DNA from: Pseudonocardiales bacterium
Lineage (GTDB): Bacteria; Actinomycetota; Actinomycetes; Mycobacteriales; Pseudonocardiaceae
Reading direction: 5' to 3'
Assembly: GCA_019244165.1 (NCBI GenBank)
Contig: JAFATA010000039.1
Location: forward strand, 1 to 34,456
Length of the DNA stretch: 34,456 nucleotides
A program made the position numbers and the translations under genes. Below, piece by piece: positions 3 to 33,251 of this stretch (its first letter is position 1; each line of letters opens with the position of its first letter). Under the pieces are notes generated by a model, which ran no database searches, was not told the DNA's origin, and saw only the letters and a list, made by a program, of their open reading frames with translations.

Positions 3-1328
3 TCGATCATGACTGCAGGTCCCTGCGTGAGCTGGACCACCATCAGGTCGGCCACCACAAGCCCAGCTCTGCTGTCCTGGTTGGCGGTCTCGCCTGGGAG
101 CCCAGCTCAGCCACCCCGCTTGGCGGTCCGAGGCGAAGCCTCTTTGGACGAGGGGGCGACTCAATCACCTCCGTTGGCGCAGTTTGGCTCTGTCAGTGAT
201 ATTGTCGCGTTGTTCGCTGCCGCCGTGAACAGCCTTAATGAAGGAGAGGGGTACAATGAGCTACTGGCGAGCTTGCAGCGATTGGTGGACAGGATGAACC
301 GACGTGACCTGGGGCAGCTCCTTGGCCTGACCGCGACCACGTCCTTTGTTGCCCCATGGCTCCAAGGCCTGGATCCCGAGGAGCAGGAACGTCTGGCGGC
401 GGCCATCGTTACACCGGAGCGAATCGATGCGCAGGTCCTTACGCACATCGAATCTATTCTTTTCGATTCCCTCCTCAGCAACGACAGGCTAGGTCCGCGG
501 GCGGCGCTGCATACCGTCCTCGCCCAGCAGAAGATACTGCAGGCTATGATCGCCGAGTGTCCCGATGAGCTGCGCCCACGCCTGCTGTCGGTATTCGGCA
601 ACTCTCTGCGACTCGCGGGCTGGGTTTTCTTCAACGCCGGCGATCTCTCCGCTACACGTCGATACTACGAGCAAGCGCGTGTGGTGGCGCAGGACGCGCA
701 GGATGGGGAGCTCGCCACCATGGTGCTGGGGAACTTGAGTCATGCCGCCGAATCATCCGGAAATCCAGCGATGGCGGTTGACTACGCCGTTGCCGCACAA
801 ACATGGGCAAAACGAGCACACCACGCCGGTTTGAGTGCATTTGCCTTCGATATTGGCGCATGCGCTTTCGCGGCGACGGGCGACTACAACACAACAATGC
901 GGAACCTTGACAGCACGCAGACCTATCTACCTGGGTGTTCGGAATCGCCGCCTAACTTCTATACGTACAACGAGGGGGCACACGTCGCTAGGCGCGGCAA
1001 GTGCCTCCTTGGGCTCGGCCGGACAGCCGACGCGGTACAAGTCATTGGCGAGTCGTTGAAACTCTATGCGGAGCGGCCTGATTTCCCGTATAAAAATATC
1101 AATGTCGCGATGGCCAAATTGGATCTTAGTGCGGCCCACGTGCAAGCGGGTGATATTGATGAAGGCGCGGCTACGCTTGCGGATGTGGGGGACTTCGTTT
1201 CCCAGAATCGTGCCAATCGCCTCGTGAAACGAATACACGGCATCCATGCCACCATGGAACCATGGCAGGACGTGCCAGTGGTCAAGCAGCTTAATGATCA
1301 ACTTCACAGTTTCGGGCTGCGGTCGTGA
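3..1328 (+). CDS. TPR-type regulator-like protein, 5' end outside or disrupted
   Basis: The reading frame is open from the left edge and stops at 1326-1328. From about base 180 onward the product is a continuous alpha-helical, TPR-like protein, with helix pairs such as GNSLRLAGWVFFNAGDLSA and MVLGNLSHAAESSGNPAMAV. This resembles the C-terminal sensor half of actinobacterial XRE-family regulators that carry an N-terminal helix-turn-helix. No helix-turn-helix is visible. The first 55 or so residues of this frame are Ser/Pro/Thr-rich and do not look like a protein domain, so the 5' end is either outside the window or damaged by a frameshift. The DNA is visibly less GC-rich than the neighbouring housekeeping genes, which suggests acquired DNA. 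The coding call is fairly sure; the regulator assignment is family inference only. No ligand or target can be named. Confidence 0.6.
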   Translation, partial: SIMTAGPCVSWTTIRSATTSPALLSWLAVSPGSPAQPPRLAVRGEASLDEGATQSPPLAQFGSVSDIVALFAAAVNSLNEGEGYNELLASLQRLVDRMNRRDLGQLLGLTATTSFVAPWLQGLDPEEQERLAAAIVTPERIDAQVLTHIESILFDSLLSNDRLGPRAALHTVLAQQKILQAMIAECPDELRPRLLSVFGNSLRLAGWVFFNAGDLSATRRYYEQARVVAQDAQDGELATMVLGNLSHAAESSGNPAMAVDYAVAAQTWAKRAHHAGLSAFAFDIGACAFAATGDYNTTMRNLDSTQTYLPGCSESPPNFYTYNEGAHVARRGKCLLGLGRTADAVQVIGESLKLYAERPDFPYKNINVAMAKLDLSAAHVQAGDIDEGAATLADVGDFVSQNRANRLVKRIHGIHATMEPWQDVPVVKQLNDQLHSFGLRS

Positions 1329-1721: not shown

Positions 1722-2579
1722 GTGGTTGTCATCGAGGTCCGCAACGCTGAGCTGCTGGAGACCGTGGCTAAGGAAGCCAAGCGTCTCAATATCGCCAACG
1801 GGGCGATCGTCAGCCTGATCGGTGCGGTGGACAGCTTCACCATCTCCACCATGTCCACACACGACGCCACCAAGGACATCATCTCTGACTACTCCGTACC
1901 GGCCGAGATGACCGGTACTGGGGAGATCGCCAACGGCGCGGCCGGGTACCCGCCGCATGCGCGGTATGACCGAGTGATCGCCACCGTGGCCTTCCCCCGG
2001 GTGCCCCCCGCACATCTGGAGCAGACCCACGCCGGGGCGCTGATCCTCATCCCGTTGAGTTTCGCTGGCCGTGGAGGGCTGATGGCGCTGCTGCGCCGCG
2101 ATGAGTCCGCCGGGGCGAGCGGACGTTTTCTCGCCCAGTACGGCGGGTTCATGGCCGTGCGCAATGTCCCAGAGCCCGCCGCCCCGAAGATTCGCCCGCG
2201 CCTACTGGCGGCCGCGCGTCCGACCGAGGTTCCGCCCGCCGCGCTCACCGACGCCCATCCGGCCGCGTTCTACCTCTCACTGTGCTGCTCGAGCCCATAC
2301 CGGACGCTGGGTTTCACCCCCGACGACCACAGCACTGGTCGGCAAACCTGGGGCCGGGGAGCCGACGGGTCCACCTTCGCCCTCACCACCCTCGGCGATA
2401 CCCCCCACGTCGCCGCCGAGGGTCCGCTGTGGGCCACTCTCGAGGCCGCCTACACCCAGTGGCGTGCACTGGGCCAACCCGCCCGCGACCGCTTCGGCAT
2501 CACTGCTGAGCGCGCACGGCAGTGGGTGTGGCTCGACCATCCCGGCCATGTGATCATCGAACCAGGTATGAGCTGCTGA
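1722..2579 (+). CDS. chimeric protein: PPC/DUF296 domain fused to PCMT-like methyltransferase C-terminus
   Basis: The GTG start at 1722 has a strong purine-rich ribosome binding site (GGGGAGG, 1708-1714). Residues 1 to about 68 look like a PPC/DUF296 domain, the predicted DNA-binding fold with a PD1-like motif (ELLETVAKEAKRLNI, NGAIVSLIGAVDSFTI). The PPC domain then breaks off before its conserved His-rich second half. From about residue 70 the sequence continues as the C-terminal half of an actinobacterial protein-L-isoaspartate O-methyltransferase-like enzyme of the kind found with ATP-grasp or FxLD peptide systems: AAGYPPHARYDRVIATVAF, then the distal DG/RFG and WLDHPGH segments. The SAM-binding N-terminal half (GxGxG region) is absent. 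The product therefore looks like an in-frame recombination product and should not be an active methyltransferase. The domain identities are recalled family patterns; the fusion itself is read directly. Confidence 0.75.
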   Translation: MVVIEVRNAELLETVAKEAKRLNIANGAIVSLIGAVDSFTISTMSTHDATKDIISDYSVPAEMTGTGEIANGAAGYPPHARYDRVIATVAFPRVPPAHLEQTHAGALILIPLSFAGRGGLMALLRRDESAGASGRFLAQYGGFMAVRNVPEPAAPKIRPRLLAAARPTEVPPAALTDAHPAAFYLSLCCSSPYRTLGFTPDDHSTGRQTWGRGADGSTFALTTLGDTPHVAAEGPLWATLEAAYTQWRALGQPARDRFGITAERARQWVWLDHPGHVIIEPGMSC

Positions 2580-6025: not shown

Positions 6026-6068
6026 CCAGGTGTTACATGGCAGTCAACGTTCGCGAGGGGTGATGCCC

Positions 6069-8192
6069 GTGTCGCAGCTGCGGCCTATGCCGCACCGAAC
6101 GATCGTCGTGGTCGATGTCGCGGGCTTCACCCGCCCGGACCGGACCATCATTCGCCAGGGCGCCGTGCACGAGGGCCTGTACCGGGTGTTACCAGACGCT
6201 TTCGCCGAACTCGGAGTCGACTGGGATGCCTGCGTGGTGGAGGACCGCGGCGATGGGATGATGATTTTGGTCCCGCCGGAGGTGCCCAACAGCCGGCTGG
6301 CCGATCTGCTACCGGGCAGATTAGTGGCGGAGCTGCGCCGGTACAATGATGTTCACTCCCCCAAGGCGGCGATGCAGCTCCGCGTCGCGGTGCATGTCGG
6401 CGAGGTGTACCAGGATGGGCGCGGCGTGGTGAGCCAGGCAGTCAACATCGCGTTCCGCATCCTGAATGCACCGGATGCGAGATCGGCATTGAGATCGTCC
6501 ACTGGTGTGCTCGCGTTCCTCGCCTCCGAGACCTTTTACCGCGAGGTGATCGTCCAAGACCCGGCGACTGACCCGGACTCCTACCGGCAAATCTCTGTTC
6601 CGGTCAGCGAGGGCGAGACGGTGGCGTGGCTCTGTCTGCCCGACCACGTAGCTCCGGTGGACGGTGGACTGCCGCACGACGCTCCACGGGCGATCGCGAT
6701 GGTGACGCCTGAGGTCCGTGAGGCCGTGGTGCAGGCGTTGGCAGAGGCCGAGCTAGCGGAGGATGCGCAGAGCTGCGCTCGCCTGACCCAGATGATCAGC
6801 AACTTCTTAGACCGCCCGCTCACGGTGCCACCACACGTGGTCGGGAGGGACTATCTGGTCGAGCTCGTCGATGCCTGCGTGAGGATCGAGGGCGGCCCGG
6901 CAGCGCTGGTCCGGGCGGTGTGGCTGATGCGGCCCGGATCGCCCGAGCATGACCGGATTAGCCGGCTCCTCGAGCAGCCGCCGGTGCTCGAGCTCCTGCC
7001 GGAGAGCGAGCTGCGACAGTTGCGCGAGTGGCTGGTCCAGATCACCATCCCGCAACTCCGCGCGCTGGTACATCACGCCGCCGGCCCCGGCGTGCCCGCC
7101 GCCCCGAGCGTGGTCAGTGCCTGGGAAGCATTCGCCCACCTGGCGGAGTTCAACGCCGGGGCCGATGGGTTCTCGCCAGCGTTGATGTTCGTCGAGTTCC
7201 TGGCGGGTCAGGTCGATGAGCCCATGAGCACCACGCTGACGAGATGGATTGATGATCAGGCGCGTCGCCTGCGGCTCGAACGTGAGCTGTGGGCCCGGCG
7301 GGCGGCAGGTACTCCCCGGATTCCGGTGGACTTCCGGCTGCACTTGATGATCGTTATGGAGCGCGATGGGATCGACCCCGACCGCTACCTGTTGTCGTAC
7401 TGGCGGCAGGACGATCCCGATCCCGCGAAGTGGCCACCCGCGCGCGGTGAAACTCACCTGGTCATGGTCGACGACCTGGAGCGGCGCGTTGACGAGCTGG
7501 TGGTGAGCGCGGAGCGGGCGTGGTCTGGACACCCAGGCGCGGTGGCGTTGGAGTTTGTGCTGCCCCGCGCCTTGCTGAACCTGCCGGTTCATCTCTGGCA
7601 CAAGGAACACGATTCGGGAGATCCGTGTCTGCTATGCTTGGATTACCCGATTGTGCTACGCTCGCTGGAACGGATGCAGTCGCAACATTGGCACCGGGTG
7701 TGGCGTCAGCGCTGGCAGGCATTGATGAACGAGCCTTCCGTGGAGCGAATTTACTTCGGGCAGCCAACGGACAGTGAGCAACGCTATCGTCTTGATGCCG
7801 TCTTGCGGGATCCGCGGTGGGCGCTCATGGTCCTCACCGCCCCGCCGCCCTGCCAGCCACAGCCCGGCGCGGACGAACTGACGGCGGCGTTGCGCTCGGG
7901 GTTGCCAGCGTTGGTCTGGCACCCCGATGCGTCGTTGGAGGCCCTGCGGGGGGTCGTCACCGGGCTCGTCGAGGATGGCGGTTTGAGGGATTTACCCGGG
8001 CGGACGCAGACCTTGCGGCAAGCTGCCTTCCAAACGACAGCGGCACCGTTGGAGGGGGACGTCGCGCGCGATCTGGTGGTGTTATGGGACGATCCGCATC
8101 GTTTAGTGGTTCTTGATCAGCCGGTGAACCAACCACCAGATGAGACAAATCCGGGAGGGGACATTGATGACGAGCGTGGCCGAGCCTCCTGA
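6069..8192 (+). CDS. nucleotide cyclase-like domain fused to VMAP regions
   Basis: A protein of about 707 residues. Residues 8-190 resemble a class III nucleotide cyclase domain: the first metal-binding Asp is in VVVDVAGFT (D16), the second in EDRGDGMM (D62), and the transition-state Asn and Arg are in AVNIAFRIL (N126, R130), so catalytic residues appear retained. Residues about 215-300 form a helical effector-associated-type domain (VREAVVQALAEAELAED). The remainder matches the VMAP middle and C-terminal regions; the C-terminal hallmarks are LEFVLPRALLNLPVHLWHK, LDYPIVLRSLERM, HRVWRQRW and ending LVVLWDDPHRL. VMAP proteins are the third component of MoxR/vWA ternary conflict systems. GTG 6069 is preferred for its spacing from GAGGGG (6055-6060); ATG 6063 is too close. 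It overlaps the MoxR gene by 26 bases. The product cyclic nucleotide, if any, is unknown. Confidence 0.8.
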   Translation: MSQLRPMPHRTIVVVDVAGFTRPDRTIIRQGAVHEGLYRVLPDAFAELGVDWDACVVEDRGDGMMILVPPEVPNSRLADLLPGRLVAELRRYNDVHSPKAAMQLRVAVHVGEVYQDGRGVVSQAVNIAFRILNAPDARSALRSSTGVLAFLASETFYREVIVQDPATDPDSYRQISVPVSEGETVAWLCLPDHVAPVDGGLPHDAPRAIAMVTPEVREAVVQALAEAELAEDAQSCARLTQMISNFLDRPLTVPPHVVGRDYLVELVDACVRIEGGPAALVRAVWLMRPGSPEHDRISRLLEQPPVLELLPESELRQLREWLVQITIPQLRALVHHAAGPGVPAAPSVVSAWEAFAHLAEFNAGADGFSPALMFVEFLAGQVDEPMSTTLTRWIDDQARRLRLERELWARRAAGTPRIPVDFRLHLMIVMERDGIDPDRYLLSYWRQDDPDPAKWPPARGETHLVMVDDLERRVDELVVSAERAWSGHPGAVALEFVLPRALLNLPVHLWHKEHDSGDPCLLCLDYPIVLRSLERMQSQHWHRVWRQRWQALMNEPSVERIYFGQPTDSEQRYRLDAVLRDPRWALMVLTAPPPCQPQPGADELTAALRSGLPALVWHPDASLEALRGVVTGLVEDGGLRDLPGRTQTLRQAAFQTTAAPLEGDVARDLVVLWDDPHRLVVLDQPVNQPPDETNPGGDIDDERGRAS

Positions 8193-9318
8193 CAGGGTGC
8201 CGCCCGAGCAGCGTGCACCTCGCTTTGATGCGCCCGACTGGTGGATTTACCGTGGTACTGGGCGGCCATTTCCTGACATTGCGCTGGCTGACCTCCTCCC
8301 GCCCCCGCCGCCATGGCGAAGCTTTCATGGCGGCCCATTGCCTGACCGTGACGAGCCTCCCCCCGACGATGGCGAGACGGAACGCCGACTCGGTGCCCGG
8401 TTTCACCTGTCCGAGCATGACGTGAACCCGCATGAAGTGGACATGGTGAACGCCGCGCTGTACCTGCGCCGTCCCTTGCTGGTCACCGGACTTCCCGGCA
8501 CCGGCAAGTCGAGTCTGGCCTTTCGGATCGCCCAGGAACTGCGACTGGGTCGGGTGCTGGTGTGGCCGATCACCAGCCGCACCACGCTGAAATCGGGTCA
8601 GTATGACTACGACGCCATAGGGCGTGCGATGGCCGCGGGAACAAGACAGGCCGTGGCCAGGTGGGGTCGGGAAGCGGGCGGTCGGGCGACGGAGGAGGCC
8701 ACAACCGCCGATCCCGTGGATCACGAGCCGCCGATCGGTGAGTTCATCCGGCTTGGCCCGTTGGGAACGGCGTTCCTGCCCAGCAGGCTGCCTCGCGTGC
8801 TGCTCATCGACGAACTGGACAAGAGCGACGTGGACTTGCCCAACGACCTGTTGAGCATCTTCGAAGACGGGGAGTTCGTCATTCGCGAGCTGGAGCGGAT
8901 CCGCAACCGCTCGCCCGAGGTGCCTGTGTTGACCAACGATCCGGAGGTCACGGCCACCATCGTCGGCGGCCGGGTCCGGTGTCACGCCTTCCCGATCATT
9001 GTGATCACCAGCAACGGGGAGCGGGACTTTCCGGCTGCCTTCCTGCGCCGGTGCCTCCGGCTGGAAACCCGCGCCCCTACTGCCGACCAGCTTGCCGCGA
9101 TCGTGGACGCCCATCTGGCGGACTCGGGTAGTGAACACCACCGGCAACGGCTCGTCCAGGAGTTCGTGGACCGAAGCAAGGCGAGTGGGGGCTTGCCCGC
9201 CGACAAGCTGTTGGACGCAGTTTATCTGGCGACCTCGGGCGCCTATCGCGAAAACGACGTGTCGTGGCCACGACTGGTGGATGCGTTGTGGCGGCAACTG
9301 ACGTCTGTGGTGCCGTGA
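8167..9318 (+). CDS. MoxR-family AAA+ ATPase of the VMAP system
   Basis: A 383-residue AAA+ ATPase. Walker A is GLPGTGKS (residues 108-115), Walker B is LLIDELDKSDVD (D215, E216), sensor 1 lies in IIVITSNGERDFP, and the arginine finger region is AFLRRCLRLE. The first 80 residues are a Pro-rich arm ending before the ATPase module. MoxR proteins act as chaperone-like ATPases working with vWA-domain partners, and a vWA protein follows directly, one base after this stop codon. ATG 8167 is chosen because GGGAGGGG lies just upstream; the frame also opens at 8140. The start overlaps the VMAP gene, which suggests translational coupling of all three genes. The role as an NTP-dependent regulator or effector loader is inferred from family context. 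Confidence 0.9.
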   Translation: MTSVAEPPDRVPPEQRAPRFDAPDWWIYRGTGRPFPDIALADLLPPPPPWRSFHGGPLPDRDEPPPDDGETERRLGARFHLSEHDVNPHEVDMVNAALYLRRPLLVTGLPGTGKSSLAFRIAQELRLGRVLVWPITSRTTLKSGQYDYDAIGRAMAAGTRQAVARWGREAGGRATEEATTADPVDHEPPIGEFIRLGPLGTAFLPSRLPRVLLIDELDKSDVDLPNDLLSIFEDGEFVIRELERIRNRSPEVPVLTNDPEVTATIVGGRVRCHAFPIIVITSNGERDFPAAFLRRCLRLETRAPTADQLAAIVDAHLADSGSEHHRQRLVQEFVDRSKASGGLPADKLLDAVYLATSGAYRENDVSWPRLVDALWRQLTSVVP

Positions 9319-9319
9319 C

Positions 9320-12300
9320 ATGAGCAGACCAGTAGGCGGGCTCGGTACCGATGACCTTACCTGGTCTGAGGTGGGGGATGCCGTCTGGCTGACGTCGGTT
9401 ACCCAGCACGCTTGGCAGGCACACCCCGCGCCGGAGCGTCCACCCCAGCCGGCCCAGGAAGACCCGGAGGGGGCACAACAGGACAGGCCGCAACCGCCTG
9501 TCGCGGCGGAGACCACCGACTCGGGCACCCTGGCGGAAAGTGAACCCGACGACCACGTCGAGCCAAGTGGTTTCCTGCTTCTCCGTTCCCCGGAGCCCGA
9601 GCCATCCGCCACGGCGCCACGTCTCTCGGCTGGCTCAGGTAGTGTCGCGCAGCCCGTTGCGCCACACCTTCCCGGCGCGAAGGACATCGTCCGTGTTCTT
9701 CGCCCGCTCCAACGAAGGGTCCCGTCCTGGTATGAGGATGAGGTCATCCTCGATGAGGAGGCCACCGCGGAACAGGCCGTCCAGGACGGGCTGTGGCTGC
9801 CGGTGACCAAGCCGGACACGGTGCGTCTGCTTGACCTGACCCTGGTGATAGACGCCAGCCCCTCGATGGCGTTGTGGCGGTCCACCGTCCGGAAGGTCAT
9901 TTCGCTGACGGAGCAGCTCGGCGCGTTTCGCTCGATCCAGCTCCGACTGCTCGACACCGAACCGTCGGCAGGAGCGTCAGCGTTGCCCGACGGCCCGGTG
10001 CTGCACGGCGGAACGCGGGCAACCCCACCCCGCAGTCCAGCCGAGCTGCTGGACTCCTCCGGCCGGCGGATCCTGCTGGTGTTAACCGACGGCGTCGGCC
10101 GGTGTTGGCGAGAAGATCTTGTCTCCCCGTTGCTCGCTCGATGGGGCGCCGCGATGCCGGTGGCCGTGATTCATCTGTTGCCGCAGCGGCTCTGGTCCCG
10201 TGGTGGGCTGGCGCTGCAGCGGGCCCGGTTGACCGTGCCCGGCCCGCTGAGACCTAATCGGCGCTGGGAGCTGGAGCTGCCGGACGCGTGGCTGGAACCC
10301 GATCCTGCCGCGGCGGTGCCGGCTGGAGTCGTACCGGTGCCGGTGCTGGAGTTGCAGGCGCGCTGGTTAGAGTGGTGGGCTCGGTTGGTCACCGGAGGCT
10401 ACCGGCGGGATCCGGCCGATGCTCTGGTGCTGCTCGCCGGCAGCACAGCGAATGACCGTGCTCGGCAGGGGGCGTTGTTGCGGGGGCGGGCGCGCGAGTC
10501 GCGCGGCTCAACCGGTGGCGAGGCGTCGGCCCAGCAGCGGGTACGGCACTTCCTCAGCGTAGCTTCACCCGAGGCCTTCCGGCTCGCCACGCTGCTGGCC
10601 GCCGCCCCGGTGGTGAGCCTGCCGGTGGCTCGGCTCGTGCAGGATCACCTCGTTCCTGAGTCCGGACCTGATCACCTGGTTGAGGTCTTCACCAGCGAGC
10701 TGCTGCGAGTACCTGCCGCTGCCGCCGACGGGCGTGCCTGGGACACGATCACCTTCGACTTCCGTGATGAGGTGCGCCAGACGCTGCTCAGCAGCGCCCG
10801 GCGCGCGGAGACCGCGCACGTCGGGCGCCTGGTCACCGAGCGTTTCGGTGACCAGATCAGTGCACTTCGCCATTTCCGGGACGCCCTGGATGCTCCAGAC
10901 GTCACTCCCGACCCCCCACTCACTGCCGACACGGCTCACTGGGTCGCGATCGAGCACACCGTCCTGCGCGCCCTCAGCGGTCCCTACCTGTTCCGTGCCG
11001 ATCGGCTTCGCAATGCCGACGCGGTGGCGCTCGACACGCCCGTTAATGACGCGGTGGCACTCGACACGCTCGTTAATACTGTTGCGTCGGGCGGTGAGGA
11101 TGACACAATGATCGCCGTGGCCGATCGCACAGATGTGGTTAGTGAGCCGACTCGCCCGGTGACACCCCCTCCGCTCAGTTCTTCAGCACACGATGGTGAG
11201 TCCCTGGCTGAGGCCACCGCTGGCAGCACGCCCACCGCAACGCGTCCGGGCCCGCAGCTCGGGTTCACGCCGGTATCCGCTCGCTCTAGGCAAGCGGATG
11301 CTGTCCCACCCATCTGGGGTGATGTGCCACCGCGCAACCCGAACTTCACCGGACGGGTCGAGTTGCTCCGAGGGCTGGACGAACGCTTGACCGCCGGTGG
11401 CACCACCGCCGTCCTGCCGGCGGCAGTGCACGGCATGAGTGGCATCGGCAAGACCCAGATGGCCGTGGAGTACATCTACCGGCACCTGCACGATTACGAC
11501 ATCATCTGGTGGATTCAAGCCACCCAGCTGGCCCAGGTTCGGGCCGGGCTGACCGATCTGGCCAAGCGTCTGGGTTTGCCGGGGAGTTCCGAGGCGCACA
11601 CGGCCGTGGCCGCGGTGCGGGAGGCCCTGCGGCTTGGTCAGCCCTACCGCAGGTGGCTGCTGGTCTTCGACGCCGCAGAAGCCCCGGAGGCGGTGCGTCC
11701 ATTCTTCCCGACCAATGGGCCCGGCGAAATCTTGGTCACGTCGCGGAACCCGGATTGGGCCGGAATCGCTCGGCCGCTCCAGGTCGATGTGTTCACCCGG
11801 GAGGAGAGCAAGGAGCTGCTCAGGCGCCGCGGCCCGGAGATCAGCGACGGGGAAGCCGACCGGTTGGCTGAGGTGCTGGGCGACCTGCCCCTGGCTATCG
11901 AGCAAGCCGCGGCGTGGCGAGCCGAGACCGGGATGCCGGTGGCTGAGTACCTTCGCTTGTTCGAGGAAAAGCGCGCGGAGATCCTCGACACATCAGCGCC
12001 CGCCGACTATCCGATGTCGGTAGCGGCGGCTTGGAATGTCTCGTTCGACGAGCTGCGTGCCCGCAGTCCTGCTGCGTTCCAACTCCTCCAGGTGTGCGCG
12101 TTCTTCGCCCCAGAACCGATCTCCCGGAGCCTGTTCAGCGGGGTCCGTGGGATGTCGATCTCCCCGGAGCTGGATGCGGCGCTACGGGACCCGATGCGGC
12201 TCAGCCGCGCGATCCGAGACATCAGCCGGTACGGTTTGGCCAAGATCGACCACCGTAACGACACCCTGCAGCTGCATCGGCTGGTGCAGTTGGCGCTGAG

Positions 12301-13786
12301 CAATCATATGATGCCGCAACGTGAGGCAGAAATGCGACACGGCGCGCATCTTCTGCTCGCCAATTATGACCCGAACGATCCAGTTTCCGCGAAACAGTGG
12401 CCGCGGTACCAGGACATGCTGCCGCACGTCTACGCGGCACAGGTGATCCAATGCGACGACCCTTGGGGACGTCAACTCGTTGTCAACCTGATGGAGTTCC
12501 TCTACCGCTGGGGTGACCACGAAGAGGCTGCCAGCCTCGCCAGGCAGGCAGTCGATTTATGGACGGAAAAGCTCGGCGAGAAAGACCTGCAGACGCTGCA
12601 AGTGGCCGGGCAATTGAGTTCCTATCTCCGGGTACTCGGCCGGTATGCCGAGGCGGCGGAAATCAACCAGCACACTGTGGAGTTATACCGTCAAGTGTCC
12701 GGCGAGATCAGCGAGGAGACAGTTAGAGCGGAACTTGATATTGCCACCGACCTGAACGTTAGCGGTGATTTTACTGCCGCACTTGAGCTGAATGAAAAAA
12801 TCTACCTGAAAGCGAAAGGGTTATTCGGCGAGGACGATCCGACAACCCTGAGAGCCGCGCATTACCTGCTCGGGAGTCTAGTGCTCACCGGACAATACCC
12901 CAGGGGACGGGAGTTGGGCGAGGACACCTATCGGCGCCGGGCGGAGGTGATCGGCTATGACAACCCGAATACGATGCGTACCCTCAATATTCTCAACCTG
13001 GCCCGCCTGGAGGCAGGTGATTACCGCTGGGCACGTGTTGAGCAGGAAGGGCTCGTTGAACGGTCACGTGAGCTCTTTGGTGCGGATAACGCCTTCACCT
13101 TGCAGGCTTCCTACCACCTCTCCGTAGCCAAGCGCAAAGACGGTGACCACCCGGGCGCACTAGAGCTATCTGCCCAAGTACTGGAGCGTTTCCGGGCGCG
13201 TTACGGGGACAAGCATCTGAACGCGATGGCCTGCGCTCTCGCCCAGTCAATCGACCTGAGACACGCTGGTGACCTCGGATCAGCACGTAAGCTCGGTGAG
13301 CAGGCTTTTAACCTGCATCGCCAGAATTTGGGTGAGCACCATCCGCATACCTTGTCTGCGCGCCTCGACCTGGCGGTGACACTGCGCCTGCTCGGCGATG
13401 CCGCCGGTGCCCGACAGCTCGACGAGCAGGTGCTCGAGCAGCTCCGGACCATGCTCGGTCCGGATCATCCGTATGCCATCGTCAGCGCGATCAACCTGGC
13501 CAGCGACCTCGCCGCGCTGGGGGAGACCGAGGCAGCTCTGGCGCTCGGCACCGAGGCGCTGGATCGAGCTAACCGCGTACTGAGCCTGGACCATCCCACG
13601 ACGCTGGCCTGCCTCACGAACCTTGTCCTTGATCTCCGCACTCTGGGTCGCACCCAGGATGCGGAGACGAAGTACGCGGAAGTTCTGACCCGCTACCGCC
13701 GCGTGCTAGGCGACGGCCATCCGGCCACCGGGGCGGCGGCCAGCGGGCAACGGGCGGACTGTGATATTGACCCGCTGCCGCTGTGA
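9320..13786 (+). CDS. vWA + NB-ARC + TPR protein, FxSxx-system TPR protein-like
   Basis: A 1488-residue multidomain protein. A Pro/Glu-rich linker (1-110) is followed by a vWA domain with the MIDAS motif DASPS near residue 178 and LVLTDG downstream, then a helical region of the SAV_2336 type (about 350-560). A second linker carries a duplicated ten-residue unit (about 567-586). The NB-ARC STAND NTPase follows: P-loop GMSGIGKT (about 704-711), LLVFDAAE, the VTSR sensor, and GDLPLAIEQAAAW (the GLPL motif). From about 1060 to 1480 there are TPRs of the kinesin-light-chain type. This is the layout of the TPR protein associated with FxSxx-COOH peptide systems, and its vWA domain can serve as the vWA partner of the MoxR upstream. 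The TPR part has lower GC than the vWA part. It is a switch-type signalling NTPase with peptide- or protein-sensing TPRs, by inference. Confidence 0.85.
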   Translation: MSRPVGGLGTDDLTWSEVGDAVWLTSVTQHAWQAHPAPERPPQPAQEDPEGAQQDRPQPPVAAETTDSGTLAESEPDDHVEPSGFLLLRSPEPEPSATAPRLSAGSGSVAQPVAPHLPGAKDIVRVLRPLQRRVPSWYEDEVILDEEATAEQAVQDGLWLPVTKPDTVRLLDLTLVIDASPSMALWRSTVRKVISLTEQLGAFRSIQLRLLDTEPSAGASALPDGPVLHGGTRATPPRSPAELLDSSGRRILLVLTDGVGRCWREDLVSPLLARWGAAMPVAVIHLLPQRLWSRGGLALQRARLTVPGPLRPNRRWELELPDAWLEPDPAAAVPAGVVPVPVLELQARWLEWWARLVTGGYRRDPADALVLLAGSTANDRARQGALLRGRARESRGSTGGEASAQQRVRHFLSVASPEAFRLATLLAAAPVVSLPVARLVQDHLVPESGPDHLVEVFTSELLRVPAAAADGRAWDTITFDFRDEVRQTLLSSARRAETAHVGRLVTERFGDQISALRHFRDALDAPDVTPDPPLTADTAHWVAIEHTVLRALSGPYLFRADRLRNADAVALDTPVNDAVALDTLVNTVASGGEDDTMIAVADRTDVVSEPTRPVTPPPLSSSAHDGESLAEATAGSTPTATRPGPQLGFTPVSARSRQADAVPPIWGDVPPRNPNFTGRVELLRGLDERLTAGGTTAVLPAAVHGMSGIGKTQMAVEYIYRHLHDYDIIWWIQATQLAQVRAGLTDLAKRLGLPGSSEAHTAVAAVREALRLGQPYRRWLLVFDAAEAPEAVRPFFPTNGPGEILVTSRNPDWAGIARPLQVDVFTREESKELLRRRGPEISDGEADRLAEVLGDLPLAIEQAAAWRAETGMPVAEYLRLFEEKRAEILDTSAPADYPMSVAAAWNVSFDELRARSPAAFQLLQVCAFFAPEPISRSLFSGVRGMSISPELDAALRDPMRLSRAIRDISRYGLAKIDHRNDTLQLHRLVQLALSNHMMPQREAEMRHGAHLLLANYDPNDPVSAKQWPRYQDMLPHVYAAQVIQCDDPWGRQLVVNLMEFLYRWGDHEEAASLARQAVDLWTEKLGEKDLQTLQVAGQLSSYLRVLGRYAEAAEINQHTVELYRQVSGEISEETVRAELDIATDLNVSGDFTAALELNEKIYLKAKGLFGEDDPTTLRAAHYLLGSLVLTGQYPRGRELGEDTYRRRAEVIGYDNPNTMRTLNILNLARLEAGDYRWARVEQEGLVERSRELFGADNAFTLQASYHLSVAKRKDGDHPGALELSAQVLERFRARYGDKHLNAMACALAQSIDLRHAGDLGSARKLGEQAFNLHRQNLGEHHPHTLSARLDLAVTLRLLGDAAGARQLDEQVLEQLRTMLGPDHPYAIVSAINLASDLAALGETEAALALGTEALDRANRVLSLDHPTTLACLTNLVLDLRTLGRTQDAETKYAEVLTRYRRVLGDGHPATGAAASGQRADCDIDPLPL
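11018..11077 (+). repeat. 30-bp tandem duplication in linker
   Basis: Two adjacent 30-base units (11018-11047 and 11048-11077) differ at two positions and encode DAVALDTPVN followed by DAVALDTLVN. The repeat is in frame, in the linker between the vWA/SAV_2336 part and the NB-ARC domain, and looks like a slippage or recombination duplication. Confidence 0.85.
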
Positions 13787-13790
13787 TTGT

Positions 13791-15620
13791 TCAATACAGG
13801 AAACAGCCGATCCAGGCGGCCAGCTCGTCGGGGAGCGGCACGGTGGGTGTGCGGGCGCGAATCCTGCGGTGCACGGCGCGGACCACTTCTGGGTAGTGCA
13901 GCAGGGCTCGGGCGGCCGGCGTCACGCCCAGCCCCGACAGGGCAAGACCGAGGCCGATCCAGGCAGCCGGGCGGTCTGCATCGGCGGCCAGTTCAGCGCG
14001 GTAGCCGCGAACAGCGTCGGTGAGTCGCCCGGTGACGTAGGCGAAGTCCGCCGCCGTGGCGCCGGGGATGCTCTGCCAGGTCGTGGACAGCGCGTTCCCG
14101 CCATCCGGGGAGTCAGCAATGCTGAGCCGGATCAGATCAGCCCGGGCGGATGACCAGGAGCCGTCCGGCACTGGCGTGGGTGCTCGATCGGTGCCCAGTG
14201 GGGTGGCGCTCGGACGGGCGGCCCCGGCCAGCCAAGCCTCCGCGAGGTCCGCCACCACTGCGGGATCTGGCCGCAGGTAGCTGATCCGCCAGCCAGCGTA
14301 GTGATCGGCGCTCACCGCTGCGACCAGAGCGCTCAGGTCGGCGGGCACCGGCTCGTCTTGCCAGGGGCCCAGCCGCTCGGCGATGCCGGCCACGAACTGG
14401 TGTCCAATCGGCGCGAGGCCCGGATCATCCCGCAGCGTAGCAAGCACGCGCCAGGTCTGCTCACGCCAGTACGCGAACTCAAACACGGCTCGGCGATCCG
14501 GTGTTCTTGGGTTAGCACAGGCGAGTGCCCGCCAGAACGTGGTAACCCCGAAGTAGGCGTACAAGCCCTGTAACACGCCGCCGATCGGACGTGGATCGTC
14601 CCGCCACGGGGTGTAGAACCGCTCGCGCGGGTCGTCGTCGTGCAGCCGGGTCAGGTGCAGCAGGCCGCTGAGGCGGATGTGCTGGAACTCGTGAACGAGT
14701 GTGGCCGCCAATGCGGCGGCGTCCGATGGTCGGGAGATGGTCGCGCTGCCGAAGGCATCACCGGTGGAGGCACTGGGTATCCGGAACGGAATCGCCGGAC
14801 GGGGCACCAGCGAGTCCAGCCCGGCGGGGAGGGCATCGGCGATGTCGGGAAGATGGTGGACAATCAGGCGCCAGGCCTGGTCGAGCAGGGCGTGCCACAC
14901 GTCCACCTCAGCGTGATCAAGTCGGTGTGGTCCCACCGGCTCGTAGAGGCCCCGGTAGGGGTCGAGGTCGTCAAGGCGCACCGAGAGCACCTGCTCGCCG
15001 GCCCGCATCGTGAGCCGCGGGATGCCCCACCACCCCGGTGCGTCCACCGCGAAAGCGGGTGGCAGGGCCACCCTCGCGACGTCGTTGCTGACTTGCACCC
15101 GACCATGTTCGCTGTGCACCTCGGCCACCGAGTACGGTGAGTCGGCGGCCAACCGGACCAGGCCCAGGGTGGGCAGCATGGCGCTGCTGTTCCAGAGCGG
15201 GATGTGGGTGTGAAAGTCAAGCCCCGCGTGGATTGCGGCTGCGGCGGCCAGCGCGTGCAGGTGTCCGGCGTGCATCCACATCGGGCACACTCCAGTGATC
15301 CGGTTGCGGAGCAGCCGCGCAGTGTAACCGGCCCAGGAACCGGTATAGGGGTGGGCAAGGATCACCTCAAGGGCCCGGGGTGCCCGCTCCTGGACCCGGG
15401 CCAGCAGCTCCCAGGCATCTTCCGCCGGGGGGAGCGGACCGAACAGTTCCGGAACCTTGGTGGTCTCCTCCACCAGAGCCCGCAGCAGGAACAGCCTCCT
15501 GCTGCGCTCCGCGCGCCGCAACCGCCGCACCGCACCCGCTCCGCCTTCCCCGCGAGCCAGGTTGTCGAAGTCGGCCCAGGACAGGCGGTGGAGCGTGAAG
15601 CCATCACCGGTGTCGGACAA
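13791..15620 (-). CDS. HExxH-motif putative peptide beta-hydroxylase
   Basis: A 609-residue protein with the hallmark LVHEFQHIRLSGLLHL (H310, E311, H314), followed by YTPWRDDPRPIGGVLQGLYAYFG. This is the signature of the HEXXH putative peptide-modification family, now regarded as 2-oxoglutarate- and iron-dependent peptide beta-hydroxylases. In FxSxx-COOH loci this domain is usually fused to, or next to, the radical SAM enzyme FxsB; here it is free-standing and no radical SAM gene is present. The N-terminal part (AVRRLRRAERSRRLFLLRALVEE) matches the family's usual start. The start is TTG 15620, as a stop codon lies three codons upstream; the ribosome binding site is weak, so it probably relies on translation of the precursor gene, which stops 23 bases before. 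The C-terminal 60 residues are TPR-like helices. It converges on the vWA/NB-ARC/TPR gene with a 4-base gap. Confidence 0.85.
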   Translation of the reverse strand: MSDTGDGFTLHRLSWADFDNLARGEGGAGAVRRLRRAERSRRLFLLRALVEETTKVPELFGPLPPAEDAWELLARVQERAPRALEVILAHPYTGSWAGYTARLLRNRITGVCPMWMHAGHLHALAAAAAIHAGLDFHTHIPLWNSSAMLPTLGLVRLAADSPYSVAEVHSEHGRVQVSNDVARVALPPAFAVDAPGWWGIPRLTMRAGEQVLSVRLDDLDPYRGLYEPVGPHRLDHAEVDVWHALLDQAWRLIVHHLPDIADALPAGLDSLVPRPAIPFRIPSASTGDAFGSATISRPSDAAALAATLVHEFQHIRLSGLLHLTRLHDDDPRERFYTPWRDDPRPIGGVLQGLYAYFGVTTFWRALACANPRTPDRRAVFEFAYWREQTWRVLATLRDDPGLAPIGHQFVAGIAERLGPWQDEPVPADLSALVAAVSADHYAGWRISYLRPDPAVVADLAEAWLAGAARPSATPLGTDRAPTPVPDGSWSSARADLIRLSIADSPDGGNALSTTWQSIPGATAADFAYVTGRLTDAVRGYRAELAADADRPAAWIGLGLALSGLGVTPAARALLHYPEVVRAVHRRIRARTPTVPLPDELAAWIGCFLY

Positions 15621-15643
15621 CGCTAATCAGTTAACCCGTCGCT

Positions 15644-15826
15644 CTAGCAGCTCTGCCAGCCGGCGACAACGGTCGCCCGTGAGTGCGCGGTTTGTTGCAT
15701 CACCCGCTGTACCGCTTGCCTGAGCACCGCGTCGTCCGACTCCCGCAACATCGTCATCGATACCGCACTGAGGTCGATCAGCCTGGATTCGACGCCCGGT
15801 TCCTGGTCGGCTGAGAGCGAGTCCAT
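15644..15826 (-). CDS. FxsA-like precursor peptide ending W-Q-S-C
   Basis: A 60-residue acidic peptide starting at ATG 15826 with an AAAGGGGG ribosome binding site about nine bases upstream. It has a leader with the FxSxx-precursor pattern (LIDLSAVSMTMLRESDDAVL, then RQAVQRVM) and a short C-terminal core ending VAGWQSC. FxSxx-COOH peptides end in Phe-x-Ser-x-x; this one has Trp instead of Phe and only one residue after Ser. The presumed partner, the HExxH enzyme gene, follows after 23 bases on the same strand, so they form a two-gene unit. The product is probably a ribosomally made, modified peptide (RiPP). The frame is also open upstream to 15904, but that extension lacks a ribosome binding site. 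The assignment to this small family is from pattern recall and could be wrong for the final residues' processing. Confidence 0.7.
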   Translation of the reverse strand: MDSLSADQEPGVESRLIDLSAVSMTMLRESDDAVLRQAVQRVMQQTAHSRATVVAGWQSC

Positions 15827-16476: not shown

Positions 16477-17154
16477 TCAGCGGATGAGCCGACGAAGCCT
16501 CTCGATGTCGATCACAATGATCTTGCGGTGCTCGGTCTGTATGCAGCCACCGGCGCGCAGCCTCTGCAGGGCTTTGGTCACGGCTTCGCGTGACGCGCCG
16601 ATCCAGCTGGCGAGTTCCTCCCGGGTGAGCCGCAGGGTGATCCTGACCCCGGATTCGGTCGGTTCGCCGAAGCGGTCGGCCAGTTCGACCAAGCGGCAGG
16701 CGACCCGGGCCAGGGTGTCGTAGACGCCGAACTCGGCCCGTTTGCGGTCCGCGTCGCGCAGCCGACCGGTGAGGGTGCGCAAGAGCAGCCACATTATTCG
16801 GGGATGGGCCTGCAGGAAAGCGGTGAAATCGGGCACCTTGATGGTCACAACCTCGACGGGTTCCATCGCGCTGACCGACGCCGAGTGTGGCTGCCCGTCG
16901 ATCGCCGCGAACTCGCCCACCAAGTCCCCTGGCCCGCGTACCGCCAAAAATACCTCGGTGCCGTCCTCGGCGGTGTGGAAGACCTTGACTTGGCCCGAGA
17001 TCACCACCTCCACTCGCTCGGAGCGGGTGGCCTCAAGGAACAGCAGTGCGCCGGCAGGCAGTCGATGCGGGCGGCCCTGCCGGAAAAGGTCGTTCCGTTC
17101 TTGCTGGGTCAGTTGCGCACCGAATCCCTGCCCCCCGGCAGCCTGATGTTCCAC
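16477..17154 (-). CDS. Crp/Fnr family transcription regulator
   Basis: A 225-residue regulator. Residues 20-135 form a cyclic-nucleotide-binding type beta-barrel (GALLFLEATRSERVEVVISGQVKVFH, GPGDLVGEFAAIDGQPHSASV), then a long dimerisation helix and a C-terminal winged helix-turn-helix (LTREELASWIGASREAVTKAL). In the phosphate-binding cassette the canonical Pro-Arg-Ser/Thr-Ala is Pro-His-Ser-Ala here, so the arginine that contacts the cyclic phosphate in cAMP-binding members is missing; the ligand may be different or absent. ATG 17154 has a GGGAGGG site about 11-17 bases upstream. It is divergent from the SpoU gene across a short gap that holds the 10-bp palindrome CGGTTAACCG (17170-17179). 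It shares orientation with the small membrane protein, precursor and HExxH genes and could regulate them. Confidence 0.88.
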   Translation of the reverse strand: MEHQAAGGQGFGAQLTQQERNDLFRQGRPHRLPAGALLFLEATRSERVEVVISGQVKVFHTAEDGTEVFLAVRGPGDLVGEFAAIDGQPHSASVSAMEPVEVVTIKVPDFTAFLQAHPRIMWLLLRTLTGRLRDADRKRAEFGVYDTLARVACRLVELADRFGEPTESGVRITLRLTREELASWIGASREAVTKALQRLRAGGCIQTEHRKIIVIDIERLRRLIR

Positions 17155-29498: not shown

Positions 29499-29725
29499 TG
29501 GGCGTCGCAGGCCCTTTCATGAGCCGTTGGAGTTGGTGGGTTGAGTCGGCCCTGTTCACCCGACATTGGTCACCGGACGCTGGGGGCCTAAGGCCCAACC
29601 CCGGGGAGACGGCCGTCCGGTACCGCGCAAGCTGGTCGCCATCCCGTGATCAAAGGTGGCATGGGTGGTCGGAAGTCTGGCTGTTACCACCCCGATGAGA
29701 ACCTAAAGCTCCTACTCAGATGCGC

Positions 29726-29731
29726 TAGATT
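29726..29731 (+). promoter_or_regulatory. candidate -10 box (TAGATT) of STAND-WD40 gene
   Basis: TAGATT lies just upstream of the 22-bp palindrome and 52 bases before the ATG. A start site about seven bases downstream would fall inside the palindrome. No clear -35 box. Confidence 0.35.
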
Positions 29732-29735
29732 TCTT

Positions 29736-29757
29736 TCCGGTCCGGATCCGGACCGGA
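29736..29757. promoter_or_regulatory. perfect 22-bp palindrome, candidate operator
   Basis: Half-site TCCGGTCCGGA followed directly by its reverse complement. It covers the expected transcription start of the STAND-WD40 gene, a position typical of a repressor site. It could be read by the helix-turn-helix-like N-terminus of the STAND protein itself or by another regulator. Confidence 0.55.
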
Positions 29758-29783
29758 GTCGTCTGCAGGCGGGGGTGTGGGTG

Positions 29784-32700
29784 ATGATGGAGCCGTCGGG
29801 GGCGCAGCGGGGGCCACGGGCGGTTTTCGCTGAGCGGTTCGCGGTGCTCTATGCCGAAGCCGGTGATCCACCGCTGCGGCAGGTGACCGCGACGGTCGCG
29901 CGGAGTGGTGCCGTGGATGAGTCGGGGCGGGCGGTTCGGGTCAGCGTGCAGCGGGTCAGTGACTGGCGAGCTGGGCGCAATGTGCCGGCCCGCTTCGCGG
30001 TTCTGGCCGCGGTGCTCATGGTGCTCATCGCGCAAGCCCGCAAGATTCGACCGGATCCCTGCCTGGAGGGTCTTTATGATGTGCCGGCTTGGCGCAGGCT
30101 GTGGGAGCAAGCCCTGGCCAGCCCGGTAGCCCCGGCGGATAGCCAGCTCGGGACACCAGAGTCTGGTGATACCGGGGTGTGTCCCTATAAGGGGCTTGCG
30201 GCATTCAGCCAGCAGGACGCCGGATGGTTTTTCGGCCGCGAGCACAGCACCGCAACCCTGGTAGCGCGGCTGGGAGAGGCGCTGGATAGCGGGGGAATCG
30301 TTATGCTGGTGGGAGCATCGGGCGCCGGGAAATCGTCTCTGCTCAACGCTGGTCTGCTCCCGGCGCTGGCGCAGGGGGAGCTGGGAATGGGGTCGGAGAG
30401 CTGGCCCGTGCTCACCATGAGCCCGGGGACCGATCCTGTGAAAGAATTGGTCCGGAATATTCCGGAGTTGACTGAAACCCTGGATACGGCGGGGGACCAG
30501 TTCGCCTCAGGTGTGCGGGCCGCGTGCGCCTCGCATCTTGCGCATACCGCGGGGGAGAACACCAGGTTAGTCATTGTCGTTGACCAGTTCGAAGAAACCT
30601 TCACCCTGAGCGGGAACGAGCAACGGCGCCGGCTGTTCGTGCGCATGTTGGAGGCGGCCAGCAGGCCCGAAGACCCCGGTGGGATGGCTCCAGCACTCGT
30701 CGTGGTGGGCTTGCGGGCGGATTTCTACAGCCAGTGTTTGGACTATCCCGAACTCGCGCGCGCGTTGCAGAACCGGCAGATGGTCCTGGGCCCGATGACG
30801 ACGCAGGAACTGCGGGCAGCCATCACGCGTCCAGCACAGGCCGAGGACCTCACGCTTCAGCCAGGGCTGGTAGAGCTGCTCCTGCGGGATCTCGGTGTGA
30901 CCGAGGACACCGCCGCTCAGGCGGCCGGTGACGACCCAGGGGCGTTGCCGCTGTTGGCGCACGCGTTGCGTGCGACGTGGCACCACCGCGAACGTCAAAC
31001 CTTGACGGTGGCCGGTTACCGGCGCACCGGGGGGATCCGCCAAGCCCTGGCCACCACCGCCGAACACGCCTACACCCAGCTCAGCCCGATCGAGCAGCCG
31101 ATCGCACGGCAGGTCCTGCTGCGGTTGGTCAACGTCAGCGACCAAGGGGGCAGCGCAGACACCCGCCGCCGACTACCGCGGGCTCAGCTCATCGAGGCAC
31201 TGCCCGACTCCGCCCCGGCGGTGGAGGCGGCGCTGGAGGCCTTCGGGGGCGCCAGACTGCTCACCTTCGACACCACCAGCGTGGAGATCACCCACGAGGC
31301 CCTGCTGCGCGCCTGGCCGAGGCTGCGCCACTGGATCGACACCGACCGCGCGGGCAACCTGACCCGCCAAGACCTCGAACACGCCGCCACCCGATGGGAC
31401 CGGGATGGCCGCGACAGCGCGGCACTGTACCGGGGAGCCCGACTGGAGACCGCCCGCGCCTGGATCGCATCCCAGCCGAACAAGGGCGACCTGAGCCCCG
31501 CCGCCTCGGCGTTTCTCACCGCCTCCACCACCCAGCAGCGCCGCAGCGCGCAACTGCGCCGCACGGTCCTCGCCGCGCTGTGCGTGCTCGCCCTGCTCAC
31601 CTCCGGGACCGCGGCCCTCGCCATTTACCAGCGCACCACCGCGCAGCAGCAACGCGACACCGCCATTCTCAACCAAATCATCGCCCGAGCTGACCGGCTG
31701 CGCGGCACCGACATCTCCCTCGCCGCCCAACTCGACCTCACCGCCTACCGCAGGCGACCGACTCAGGATCTCTACACGGCCCTCATCACCGACGCGAACG
31801 CCGCTTTGTCCACCCCGCTGAGCGGCCACACGGACTCGGTCAACGCGGTGGCGTTCAGTCCGGACGGGCGCACTCTCGCTAGCGGTAGCAGCGACCACAC
31901 CATCCGGCTGTGGAACATGGCCGACCCGACCCACCCCACGCCGTTGGGCTCGTCCCTGAGCGGCCACACCGACTCGGTCAAGGCGATCGCCTTCAATCCA
32001 GATGGGCGCACCCTGGCTAGCGGTAGCAGCGACCACACCATCCGGCTGTGGAACGTGACCGACCCAGCCCACCCCACGCCGCTGGGCTCACCTCTGACCA
32101 CCCAAACCGACCAGATCGCCGCGGTAGTGTTCAGTCCGGATGGGCGCATCCTGGCCACCGGCAGCGGCGACCAGACCGTGCTGCTCTGGAACGTCACCAA
32201 CCCCACCCACCCCACACCCGTAGAACCACCCCTGACCGGCCACAACAGCTACGTAGGCGCGGTAGCGTTCAGTCCGGATGGGCACACTCTCGCTAGCGGC
32301 AGCTGGGACCAGACCATGCGGCTGTGGAACATTCCCTCGGTGTTCCTCATCAGCCACACCGGCCCGGTCCATGCGGTGGTGTTCATTCCTGATGGGCGCA
32401 TCCTGGCCACTGGAAGCTACGACCGGACGGTGCAGCTGTGGAGTGTGGTCGACTCAGTTCATCCCGCTGCGGTGGGTCCGCCCCTGAGCGGGCACACTGG
32501 CAACGTCAACGCCGTGGCGTTCAGCCCAGATGGACACACGCTGGCCAGCGGTAGCGACGATCACACCATCCGGCTGTGGAGTGTGGCCGATTCAGCTCAT
32601 CCCGCTGCGGTGGGTCCGCCCCTGAGCGGGCACACCGGCAACGTCAACGCCGTGGCATTCAGCCCCGACGGGCGCACCTTGGCTAGCGGCAGCGACGACC

Positions 32701-33251
32701 ACACCGTGCGGCTGTGGAACATCACCGACCTCACTCACCCCACGCCCGTGGGCAAACCCCTGACTGGCCACACCAACACCGTCTTTGCGGTGGCGTTCAG
32801 CCCGGATGGACGCACCTTGGCCAGCGGCAGCGACGACCAGACCGTGCGGCTCTGGAACGTCACCGACCCCAACCACGCCATGCCCCTGGGCGCGCCGCTG
32901 AACGGCCACACTAACACCGTCCGCTCGGTGGCGTTCAGCCCAGATGGACACAGGCTGGCCAGCGGCAGCGACGACCGCACCATCCGGCTGTGGAATGTGG
33001 CCGATCCGGCCCATGCCACTGCGTTGGGTCAACCTCTGACTGGCGACACCCGCTTCGTCTCCGCGGTGGCGCTCAGCCCAGATGGACACACGCTGGCCAG
33101 CGGCAGCCGCGACCGCACCGTGCGGTTGTGGGACTTGAACGTCGACCAGGCGATCCAGCGGATCTGCGCCACCACCGCGAACACCCTCACCCCCGCGACG
33201 TGGGCCCAGTACGTATCACCGGACCTGCCCTATCGCCCGCCCTGCTCATAG
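29784..33251 (+). CDS. nSTAND1 NTPase with WD40 beta-propeller
   Basis: A protein of about 1155 residues. The N-terminus (1-100) is helical with an XRE-like segment (VSVQRVSDWRAGRNVPARF). The STAND module follows CPYKGLAAFSQQDAGWFFGRE: P-loop GASGAGKSS (177-185) and Walker B LVIVVDQFEE (D267), then winged-helix and helical regions to about 580. A membrane helix (TVLAALCVLALLTSGTAALAIY, about 594-615) is followed by a helix and by ten WD40 repeats (about 680-1115), each with the pattern SPDGxTLASGSxDxTxRLW. The tail ends in Cys-Ser. Such proteins are signal-sensing switches that oligomerise on activation; the membrane helix places the propeller outside if the STAND module is cytoplasmic. The start choice follows the GGCGGGGG ribosome binding site; upstream residues to 29646 are not protein-like. 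It is divergent from the sigma factor. Confidence 0.92.
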   Translation: MMEPSGAQRGPRAVFAERFAVLYAEAGDPPLRQVTATVARSGAVDESGRAVRVSVQRVSDWRAGRNVPARFAVLAAVLMVLIAQARKIRPDPCLEGLYDVPAWRRLWEQALASPVAPADSQLGTPESGDTGVCPYKGLAAFSQQDAGWFFGREHSTATLVARLGEALDSGGIVMLVGASGAGKSSLLNAGLLPALAQGELGMGSESWPVLTMSPGTDPVKELVRNIPELTETLDTAGDQFASGVRAACASHLAHTAGENTRLVIVVDQFEETFTLSGNEQRRRLFVRMLEAASRPEDPGGMAPALVVVGLRADFYSQCLDYPELARALQNRQMVLGPMTTQELRAAITRPAQAEDLTLQPGLVELLLRDLGVTEDTAAQAAGDDPGALPLLAHALRATWHHRERQTLTVAGYRRTGGIRQALATTAEHAYTQLSPIEQPIARQVLLRLVNVSDQGGSADTRRRLPRAQLIEALPDSAPAVEAALEAFGGARLLTFDTTSVEITHEALLRAWPRLRHWIDTDRAGNLTRQDLEHAATRWDRDGRDSAALYRGARLETARAWIASQPNKGDLSPAASAFLTASTTQQRRSAQLRRTVLAALCVLALLTSGTAALAIYQRTTAQQQRDTAILNQIIARADRLRGTDISLAAQLDLTAYRRRPTQDLYTALITDANAALSTPLSGHTDSVNAVAFSPDGRTLASGSSDHTIRLWNMADPTHPTPLGSSLSGHTDSVKAIAFNPDGRTLASGSSDHTIRLWNVTDPAHPTPLGSPLTTQTDQIAAVVFSPDGRILATGSGDQTVLLWNVTNPTHPTPVEPPLTGHNSYVGAVAFSPDGHTLASGSWDQTMRLWNIPSVFLISHTGPVHAVVFIPDGRILATGSYDRTVQLWSVVDSVHPAAVGPPLSGHTGNVNAVAFSPDGHTLASGSDDHTIRLWSVADSAHPAAVGPPLSGHTGNVNAVAFSPDGRTLASGSDDHTVRLWNITDLTHPTPVGKPLTGHTNTVFAVAFSPDGRTLASGSDDQTVRLWNVTDPNHAMPLGAPLNGHTNTVRSVAFSPDGHRLASGSDDRTIRLWNVADPAHATALGQPLTGDTRFVSAVALSPDGHTLASGSRDRTVRLWDLNVDQAIQRICATTANTLTPATWAQYVSPDLPYRPPCS
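32443..32718 (+). repeat. tandem 138-bp WD40 repeat units, recently duplicated
   Basis: Units 32443-32580 and 32581-32718 encode neighbouring WD40 blades with almost the same linker (HPAAVGPPLSGHTGNVNAVA). I count six differences over the first 86 or so bases, much closer than other blade pairs, which points to a recent unequal exchange. Confidence 0.8.

Follow-up and report, generated by a model that had tools for sequence, protein, structure and literature searches.

The window, a stretch of 34,456 nucleotides from a Pseudonocardiales bacterium, contains a two-gene unit that encodes a small peptide with an FxsA-like leader and a stand-alone enzyme of the HExxH type. We predict that this enzyme oxidises the C-terminal tail of the peptide without a radical SAM step, and the product is likely passed to a facing system made of VMAP, a MoxR-like ATPase and a vWA-AP-ATPase-TPR protein; we regard the chances of this reading as about even. 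The window is the entire contig C6 (G000:C6) of a genome of 3.74 Mb in 85 contigs, 88% complete. The open reading frame (ORF) of the peptide lies upstream of that of the enzyme with a spacing of 23 bases, as follows.

15644-15826, minus strand: FxsA-like precursor peptide, 60 amino acids; evidence from TIGR04268, the relatives P0121-P0124, a leader alignment with 14 relatives and dN/dS.
13791-15620, minus strand: stand-alone enzyme of the aKG-HExxH peptide hydroxylase family, 609 amino acids, TTG start; evidence from TIGR04267, a match to PDB entry 22nu and fold comparison.

The product of the small ORF scores 32.1 bits against the FxSxx-COOH profile TIGR04268 (cut-off 28), and a ribosome-binding-like run, GGGGG, is located directly upstream of its ATG. 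The leader is conserved over about residues 1-50 and is followed by a short tail, ...VVAGWQSC-COOH. Over 52 codons compared with the same-genus genome G154, the leader is under coding constraint, with a nonsynonymous rate (dN) of 0.197, a synonymous rate (dS) of 0.544 and dN/dS of about 0.36. A protein search with the peptide gave four matches (P0121-P0124), one identical and three not. The non-identical relatives P0122-P0124 score 23.5, 14.3 and 14.5 bits, under the TIGR04268 cut-off, and their tails are VVGYNTC, GGSRQRVD and SDEGP, respectively. The first-pass annotation of this DNA had named a lack of conservation of the small ORF in relatives as a result that would refute it; the constrained leader and the database relatives speak otherwise. 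It had also called the peptide an FxsA-like precursor. This name fits the leader, which carries the TIGR04268 match, but not the tail: in AGWQSC a W replaces the F of FxSxx and one residue is missing. WQSC is not an RxD end either; the close relative P0123 does end in RVD.

Is such a tail real? The peptide of G154 ends in LWKPTD, and an 11-base DNA gap separates the G154 and window tails. An assembly frame error was considered as the source of AGWQSC, given this gap and another frame whose end, on inspection by eye, is akin to ERVD. It was rejected as the main reading because P0122, an independent relative with 80% identity, is equally long and has a similar tail that retains the pattern aromatic/amide/hydroxyl/Cys. 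The window tail is thus real but unusual. A comparison of two sequences suggests that an ancestor with an RxD end probably gave rise to it by a shift of frame.

The enzyme scores 172.6 bits against TIGR04267, the aKG-HExxH-type peptide beta-hydroxylase profile (cut-off 40). It has the motif HEFQH at residues 310-314 and WRDDPRP starting at residue 339, and its C-terminal part (about 487-609) is helical and TPR-like. It matches PDB entry 22nu (SjiH) at 183.4 bits, and its predicted model (pLDDT 87.8) matches SjiH (22ob) and ChlH (8s5f) by Foldseek and VIA-align. Score, HExxH iron motif and the fold of solved enzymes all place it in TIGR04267. SjiH and ChlH share with it the fold and the HExxH and WRxDxRP-type motifs. 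They differ in their setting. ChlH forms one domain of a radical SAM fusion and has a cyclophane as its substrate (PMC12636437), and 22nu bears the label of a radical SAM protein, whereas the window enzyme stands alone and has the extra C-terminal helical part.

Kaur et al. 2020 (PMC7159879) read the enzyme of such systems as a cleaving peptidase. On that proposal it would be a zincin metallopeptidase that hydrolyses the precursor and releases the tail. The zincin-like fold and the HExxH motif agree with it, and PflC is reported to hydrolyse when the leader is missing (PMC12636437). However, the closest solved relatives are aKG-type HExxH enzymes, the family is named for hydroxylation, and a WRxDPR-type motif is common to the window enzyme, SjiH and ChlH. 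Hydrolysis is therefore unlikely, and by family and predicted fold the enzyme is placed with the hydroxylases, not with the peptidases of Kaur et al.

The unit and its neighbours form two convergent operons, with stop-codon ends at 13786 on the plus strand and 13791 on the minus strand. The other genes of the cassette are listed below.

9320-13786, plus strand: fusion of a vWA-type SAV_2336 N-terminal domain, AP-ATPase (NB-ARC) and TPRs, FxsT-like, 1488 amino acids; NF041121 405.1 bits, NF040586 (FxSxx_TPR) 883.3 bits.
8140-9318, plus strand: MoxR-like AAA+ ATPase of the ternary system, 392 amino acids; AAA_5 27.8 bits, cut-off 22.
6030-8192, plus strand: VMAP protein (EAD2, VMAP-M0, VMAP-C), 720 amino acids; Pfam PF20028 146.9, PF19916 90.4 and PF19956 52.2 bits.
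16477-17154, minus strand: Crp/Fnr family regulator, upstream of the two-gene unit in the same direction and possibly part of it; PF00027, PF13545.

The 9320-13786 protein also matches NB-ARC, TPR_12 and TPR_10; the vWA label of its SAV_2336 N-terminal domain is taken from Kaur et al. and not from a vWA profile match. VMAP, the MoxR-like ATPase and the vWA-type protein share one operon, which is the mark of a VMAP-ternary system. The AP-ATPase and TPRs are fused to the vWA protein and no radical SAM gene is present in the cassette, which is the mark of an RxD-type module in Kaur et al. 2020. The first-pass annotation had described a precursor-like peptide and a stand-alone HExxH protein as a two-gene unit that faces an FxsT-like TPR protein coupled to VMAP and MoxR. 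Both parts of this description are borne out, the first by two profile matches above their cut-offs and the second by the FxSxx_TPR, NB-ARC, AAA_5 and VMAP-C profiles.

The arrangement is not new. Among the VMAP-linked peptide types of Kaur et al. 2020 (FxSxx, RxD, acidic and FtsH-associated; PMC7159879, with further background on VMAP in PMC8195603), radical SAM accompanies the FxSxx type, while the RxD and acidic types have the AP-ATPase fused to vWA and lack radical SAM. These VMAP-ternary RxD and acidic systems resemble the window cassette in the short variable peptide, the zincin-fold enzyme, VMAP, MoxR, the vWA/AP-ATPase/TPR protein, the lack of a radical SAM gene and sometimes a Crp-like gene. 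They differ in that peptide cleavage is the published activity, where family and fold point here to aKG hydroxylases, and in that the window tail GWQSC falls outside all four tail types described there. The loci for cyclophane peptides (ribosomally synthesised and post-translationally modified peptides, RiPPs) with FxsA, FxsB, FxsC and FxsT (TIGR04268, TIGR04269, TIGR04276, NF040586) share the FxsA-type leader, the HExxH domain and the FxsT-type TPR protein. Unlike them, the window cassette has no adjacent FxsB, no FxsC in its genome and no FxSxx tail, and has VMAP and MoxR in addition. New here are the tested absence of FxsB, the reassignment of the enzyme to a hydroxylase fold, the recurrence of the RxD tail in several families and the odd GWQSC tail of the window. 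No paper joining VMAP systems with aKG-HExxH hydroxylation was found in the open PMC literature, subscription papers being outside this scope.

Is the absence of FxsB a reduction of this one genome? Orthologues were searched over 297 family genomes, of which 112 matched at E <= 1e-10. Counted from the listing, 40 genomes (the window's included) have an orthologue with at least 50% identity; FxsB was found in 7 of them and not in the other 33. We fetched 40 orthologous stretches, from 38 of the 39 other genomes at this level (G083 was left out) and from two genomes at 45% and 42%. The cassette is conserved: enzyme-related ORFs and the peptide occur in 40/40 stretches, FxsT in 39, MoxR in 39 and VMAP in 37. 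The FxsT operon lies on the opposite side in G057 (L072) and not within the fetched stretch of G230 (L075). By tblastn, FxsB was found in 0/40 stretches. On comparison loci, the FxsB tblastn was positive in 20/20 FxsB controls, 0/20 further FxsB-free family loci and 7/21 class-wide loci. Three of the last seven (L165, L166, L169) carry MoxR and VMAP matches too, so VMAP does not exclude FxsB. A CxxxCxxC scan for other radical SAM genes beside the cassette, over ORFs of at least 200 amino acids in the 40 stretches, gave seven rows, none judged by eye to be radical SAM. Apart from the cassette genes, only the Crp-like gene (24/40) recurs in at least 10 of the stretches; the remaining rows read as overlapping frames. 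Incomplete assembly does not explain the absence across the class, as FxsB is missing from single-contig genomes too. FxsB-linked and FxsB-free enzymes separate on the trees, which leave out L119 and nine near-identical orthologues: the label switches once with 69 rows (a single branch, SH-aLRT 96) and twice with 90 rows. FxsB absence is a property of an old class and not a reduction peculiar to this genome. The idea of a reduced pathway without FxsB therefore holds as to the missing enzyme, in genomes, stretches and tree alike, but not as to a special reduction, since the class is old and already described. As a separate observation, one locus (L088 in G277, 8998-13217, minus strand) has a tandem pair of HExxH genes adjoining one VMAP-type operon.

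The tails differ along with FxsB. All sets together gave 98 peptides from 102 loci, 23 FxsB-linked and 75 FxsB-free. F-x-[SND] is found within the last 20 residues of 19/23 FxsB-linked peptides (18/22 without L115, a spurious frame) versus 6/75 FxsB-free ones, while Arg-x-Asp-COOH ends are found in 0/23 versus 36/75. Among the 41 peptides of the orthologous set, 30 have an RxD end and none has an FxSxx end; the last residue is Asp, His or Asn in 37. Saccharopolyspora indica and Amycolatopsis coloradensis are relatives whose intact units have RxD tails. Beyond the family, RxD ends take the forms RRFD, RRLD, NRTD, DRQD (two loci), and ARCD in Streptomyces sp. MMG1533. The FxsB-free set has 43 distinct last-four tails; 10 of these are RxD, where composition would predict about 0.3, and the RxD state changes seven times on the tree.

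A conserved leader with a fast-changing tail could also be seen in a small protein that is not itself modified and instead regulates the enzyme or the TPR-ATPase or serves one of them as adaptor, its tail varying for want of chemical constraint. We consider this highly improbable, as RxD tails recur in ten distinct spellings, beyond what composition alone gives, and the leader is homologous to that of modified FxsA peptides.

The RxD ends suggest another chemistry. Ouyang et al. (PMC12636437) report HEXXH enzymes that hydroxylate Gln and that cut oxidatively at ARMD. In the manner of PflC, the window enzyme might oxidise the backbone at an alpha-carbon shortly ahead of the C-terminus, such as that of the conserved Gly of GGERID, so that a short RxD peptide is split off and an amide is left. 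PflC and PosC of Pseudomonas cut so at a C-terminal ARMD, where a small residue at the cut (Ala, partly Gly) is decisive. They too are stand-alone HEXXH enzymes with leader-bearing precursors, and the ARMD at the end of these is similar to the RxD of the orthologues. Gly at position -5 in 29/41 and Arg at -3 in 32/41 orthologous peptides, together with the Streptomyces ARCD end, would suit such a cut. However, the Gly sits one residue farther from Arg than the Ala of ARMD does, and the window tail has no RxD. The Pseudomonas clusters differ further in having MNIO-nitroreductase, GNAT and transporters and no VMAP; the precursors are likened by their end motif. Oxidative cleavage is on balance unlikely.

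What, then, would the enzyme do? The system fits oxidation of the tail of an intracellular peptide because of the conserved leader, the hydroxylase fold, the tails bearing Asp, His, Asn or Gln, the absence of FxsB and the lack of a conserved exporter. The genes, the family and fold of the enzyme, the cassette, the tail pattern and the absence of FxsB are observed, whereas the chemistry, the residue that it would hit and the passing on of a signal are what we infer. The leader would dock on the HExxH enzyme. Fe(II) held by the HExxH motif, with 2-oxoglutarate, would then hydroxylate an Asp, His, Asn or Gln of the tail, the predicted target being the Gln in the window's WQSC and the Asp in RxD tails. 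As no exporter is conserved, the product would stay in the cell, and the TPR/AP-ATPase protein may read it as a signal or threshold. Precursors ending in R(V/T)DN are known with an aKG-HExxH proline hydroxylase (PMC13060819), and for BpmH the role given in PMC12257519 is a predicted one.

Several points weigh against this reading. The window tail lacks both an RxD motif and an Asp at its C-terminus. FxsB-free tails are highly diverse, with the 43 distinct last-four tails spread among 75 peptides, so that no single target residue is shared. The looser pattern [FWY].[SND] is less telling (21/23 FxsB-linked versus 28/75 FxsB-free), and since the link of FxsB with tails rests on one or two tree changes, its p-values are not independent evidence. 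From the literature, ChlBH requires a preinstalled cyclophane and PosC can do without any single one of Arg, Met and Asp in ARMD (PMC12636437), while the Asp of the nitrilobacillin R(V/T)DN is hydroxylated by MNIO and not by the HExxH enzyme (PMC13060819). Finally, the window's genome does hold fxsB, on contig C84, with a match of 441.9 bits.

The C84 match is broken across two frames (441.9 and 28.5 bits), and the HExxH similarity ends after a short stretch of 44 aligned residues, a remnant. No FxsT and no precursor match was found in the first 14 kb of C84. Intact FxsB loci are present in the same-genus genomes G180 and G191. The fxsB gene is apparently decayed; true decay and sequencing error both fit the split frame. 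FxsC has no match in this 88% complete genome, and in the genome-wide TIGR04268 search the window peptide was the only match above the cut-off among the 150 of 179 candidates scored. The first-pass statement that there is no radical SAM enzyme is thus right for the cassette but wrong for the genome. The search for fxsB and fxsC which it proposed recovered the former, in two frames, and not the latter. The split cluster that it named as a refuting case exists by half, fxsB being present but neither just outside the cassette nor apparently intact. Two loci of this genome may be mentioned. At C84:1845-5879 (L009), a region colinear with the intact loci of G191 and G180, a peptide-methyltransferase-like reading precedes fxsB and also changes frame. 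At C14:857-1983 (L028, L018) a further, separate RiPP-like locus pairs another radical SAM gene with a diverged HExxH gene, which scores 46.5 bits against a cut-off of 40.

Could the C84 FxsB act in trans, making a W-Q-S cyclophane on the window peptide that the HExxH enzyme then hydroxylates? Besides the match itself, W-Q-S is an aromatic-x-Ser triad, the FxsB locus of G191 has an AGWSSF peptide, and the pattern is kept as Y-N-T-C in P0122. Yet the broken frames, the remnant HExxH partner and the missing FxsT and precursor matches speak against it, and the same-genus G154 has the cassette without FxsB. In addition, five FxsB loci were fetched of the six other genomes bearing both (G066, G131, G212, G238, G255), and each has its own adjacent FxsA-like peptide. 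Action in trans is very unlikely.

Elsewhere in the window, 9-1328 (plus strand) encodes an NsdA-family TPR-like regulatory protein (162.3 bits, cut-off 75). The gene at 29646-33251 (plus strand) encodes an nSTAND1 NTPase fused with about ten WD40 repeats, and within it 138-base unit arrays lie at 31818-32330 and 32435-33131, 78-79% matching. The product of 1722-2579 (plus strand) matches TIGR04188, the ATP-grasp peptide maturase methyltransferase, at 132.4 bits, under the cut-off of 380. The match runs over residues 69-267 and covers the second half of the profile (162-361 of 363), with a weak PCC-domain match ahead of it. The ORF resembles what is left of a second peptide-modification system, either truncated or fused.

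If oxidation of the tail by the two-gene unit is right, what does it mean for the VMAP conflict systems? Their "peptide-processing" arm would work by an oxygenase in place of a protease, and the HExxH peptide oxygenases that go with FxsA-type leaders would be an old class that works without cyclophane formation by radical SAM. A bolder and rather doubtful extension is an immune switch. The HExxH oxygenase would read oxygen, iron and 2-oxoglutarate, and the hydroxylated or unhydroxylated tail would act as a ligand and so set the threshold of a death-like TPR/AP-ATPase effector. Such a switch would be a bacterial counterpart of the hydroxylation signalling of the hypoxia-inducible factor (HIF) type, with tails (ERID, ERVD, ARCD, and here WQSC) diversified like recognition codes. 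The two-gene unit is small enough to co-express, and would reveal the signal that is read by immune-like ATPases.
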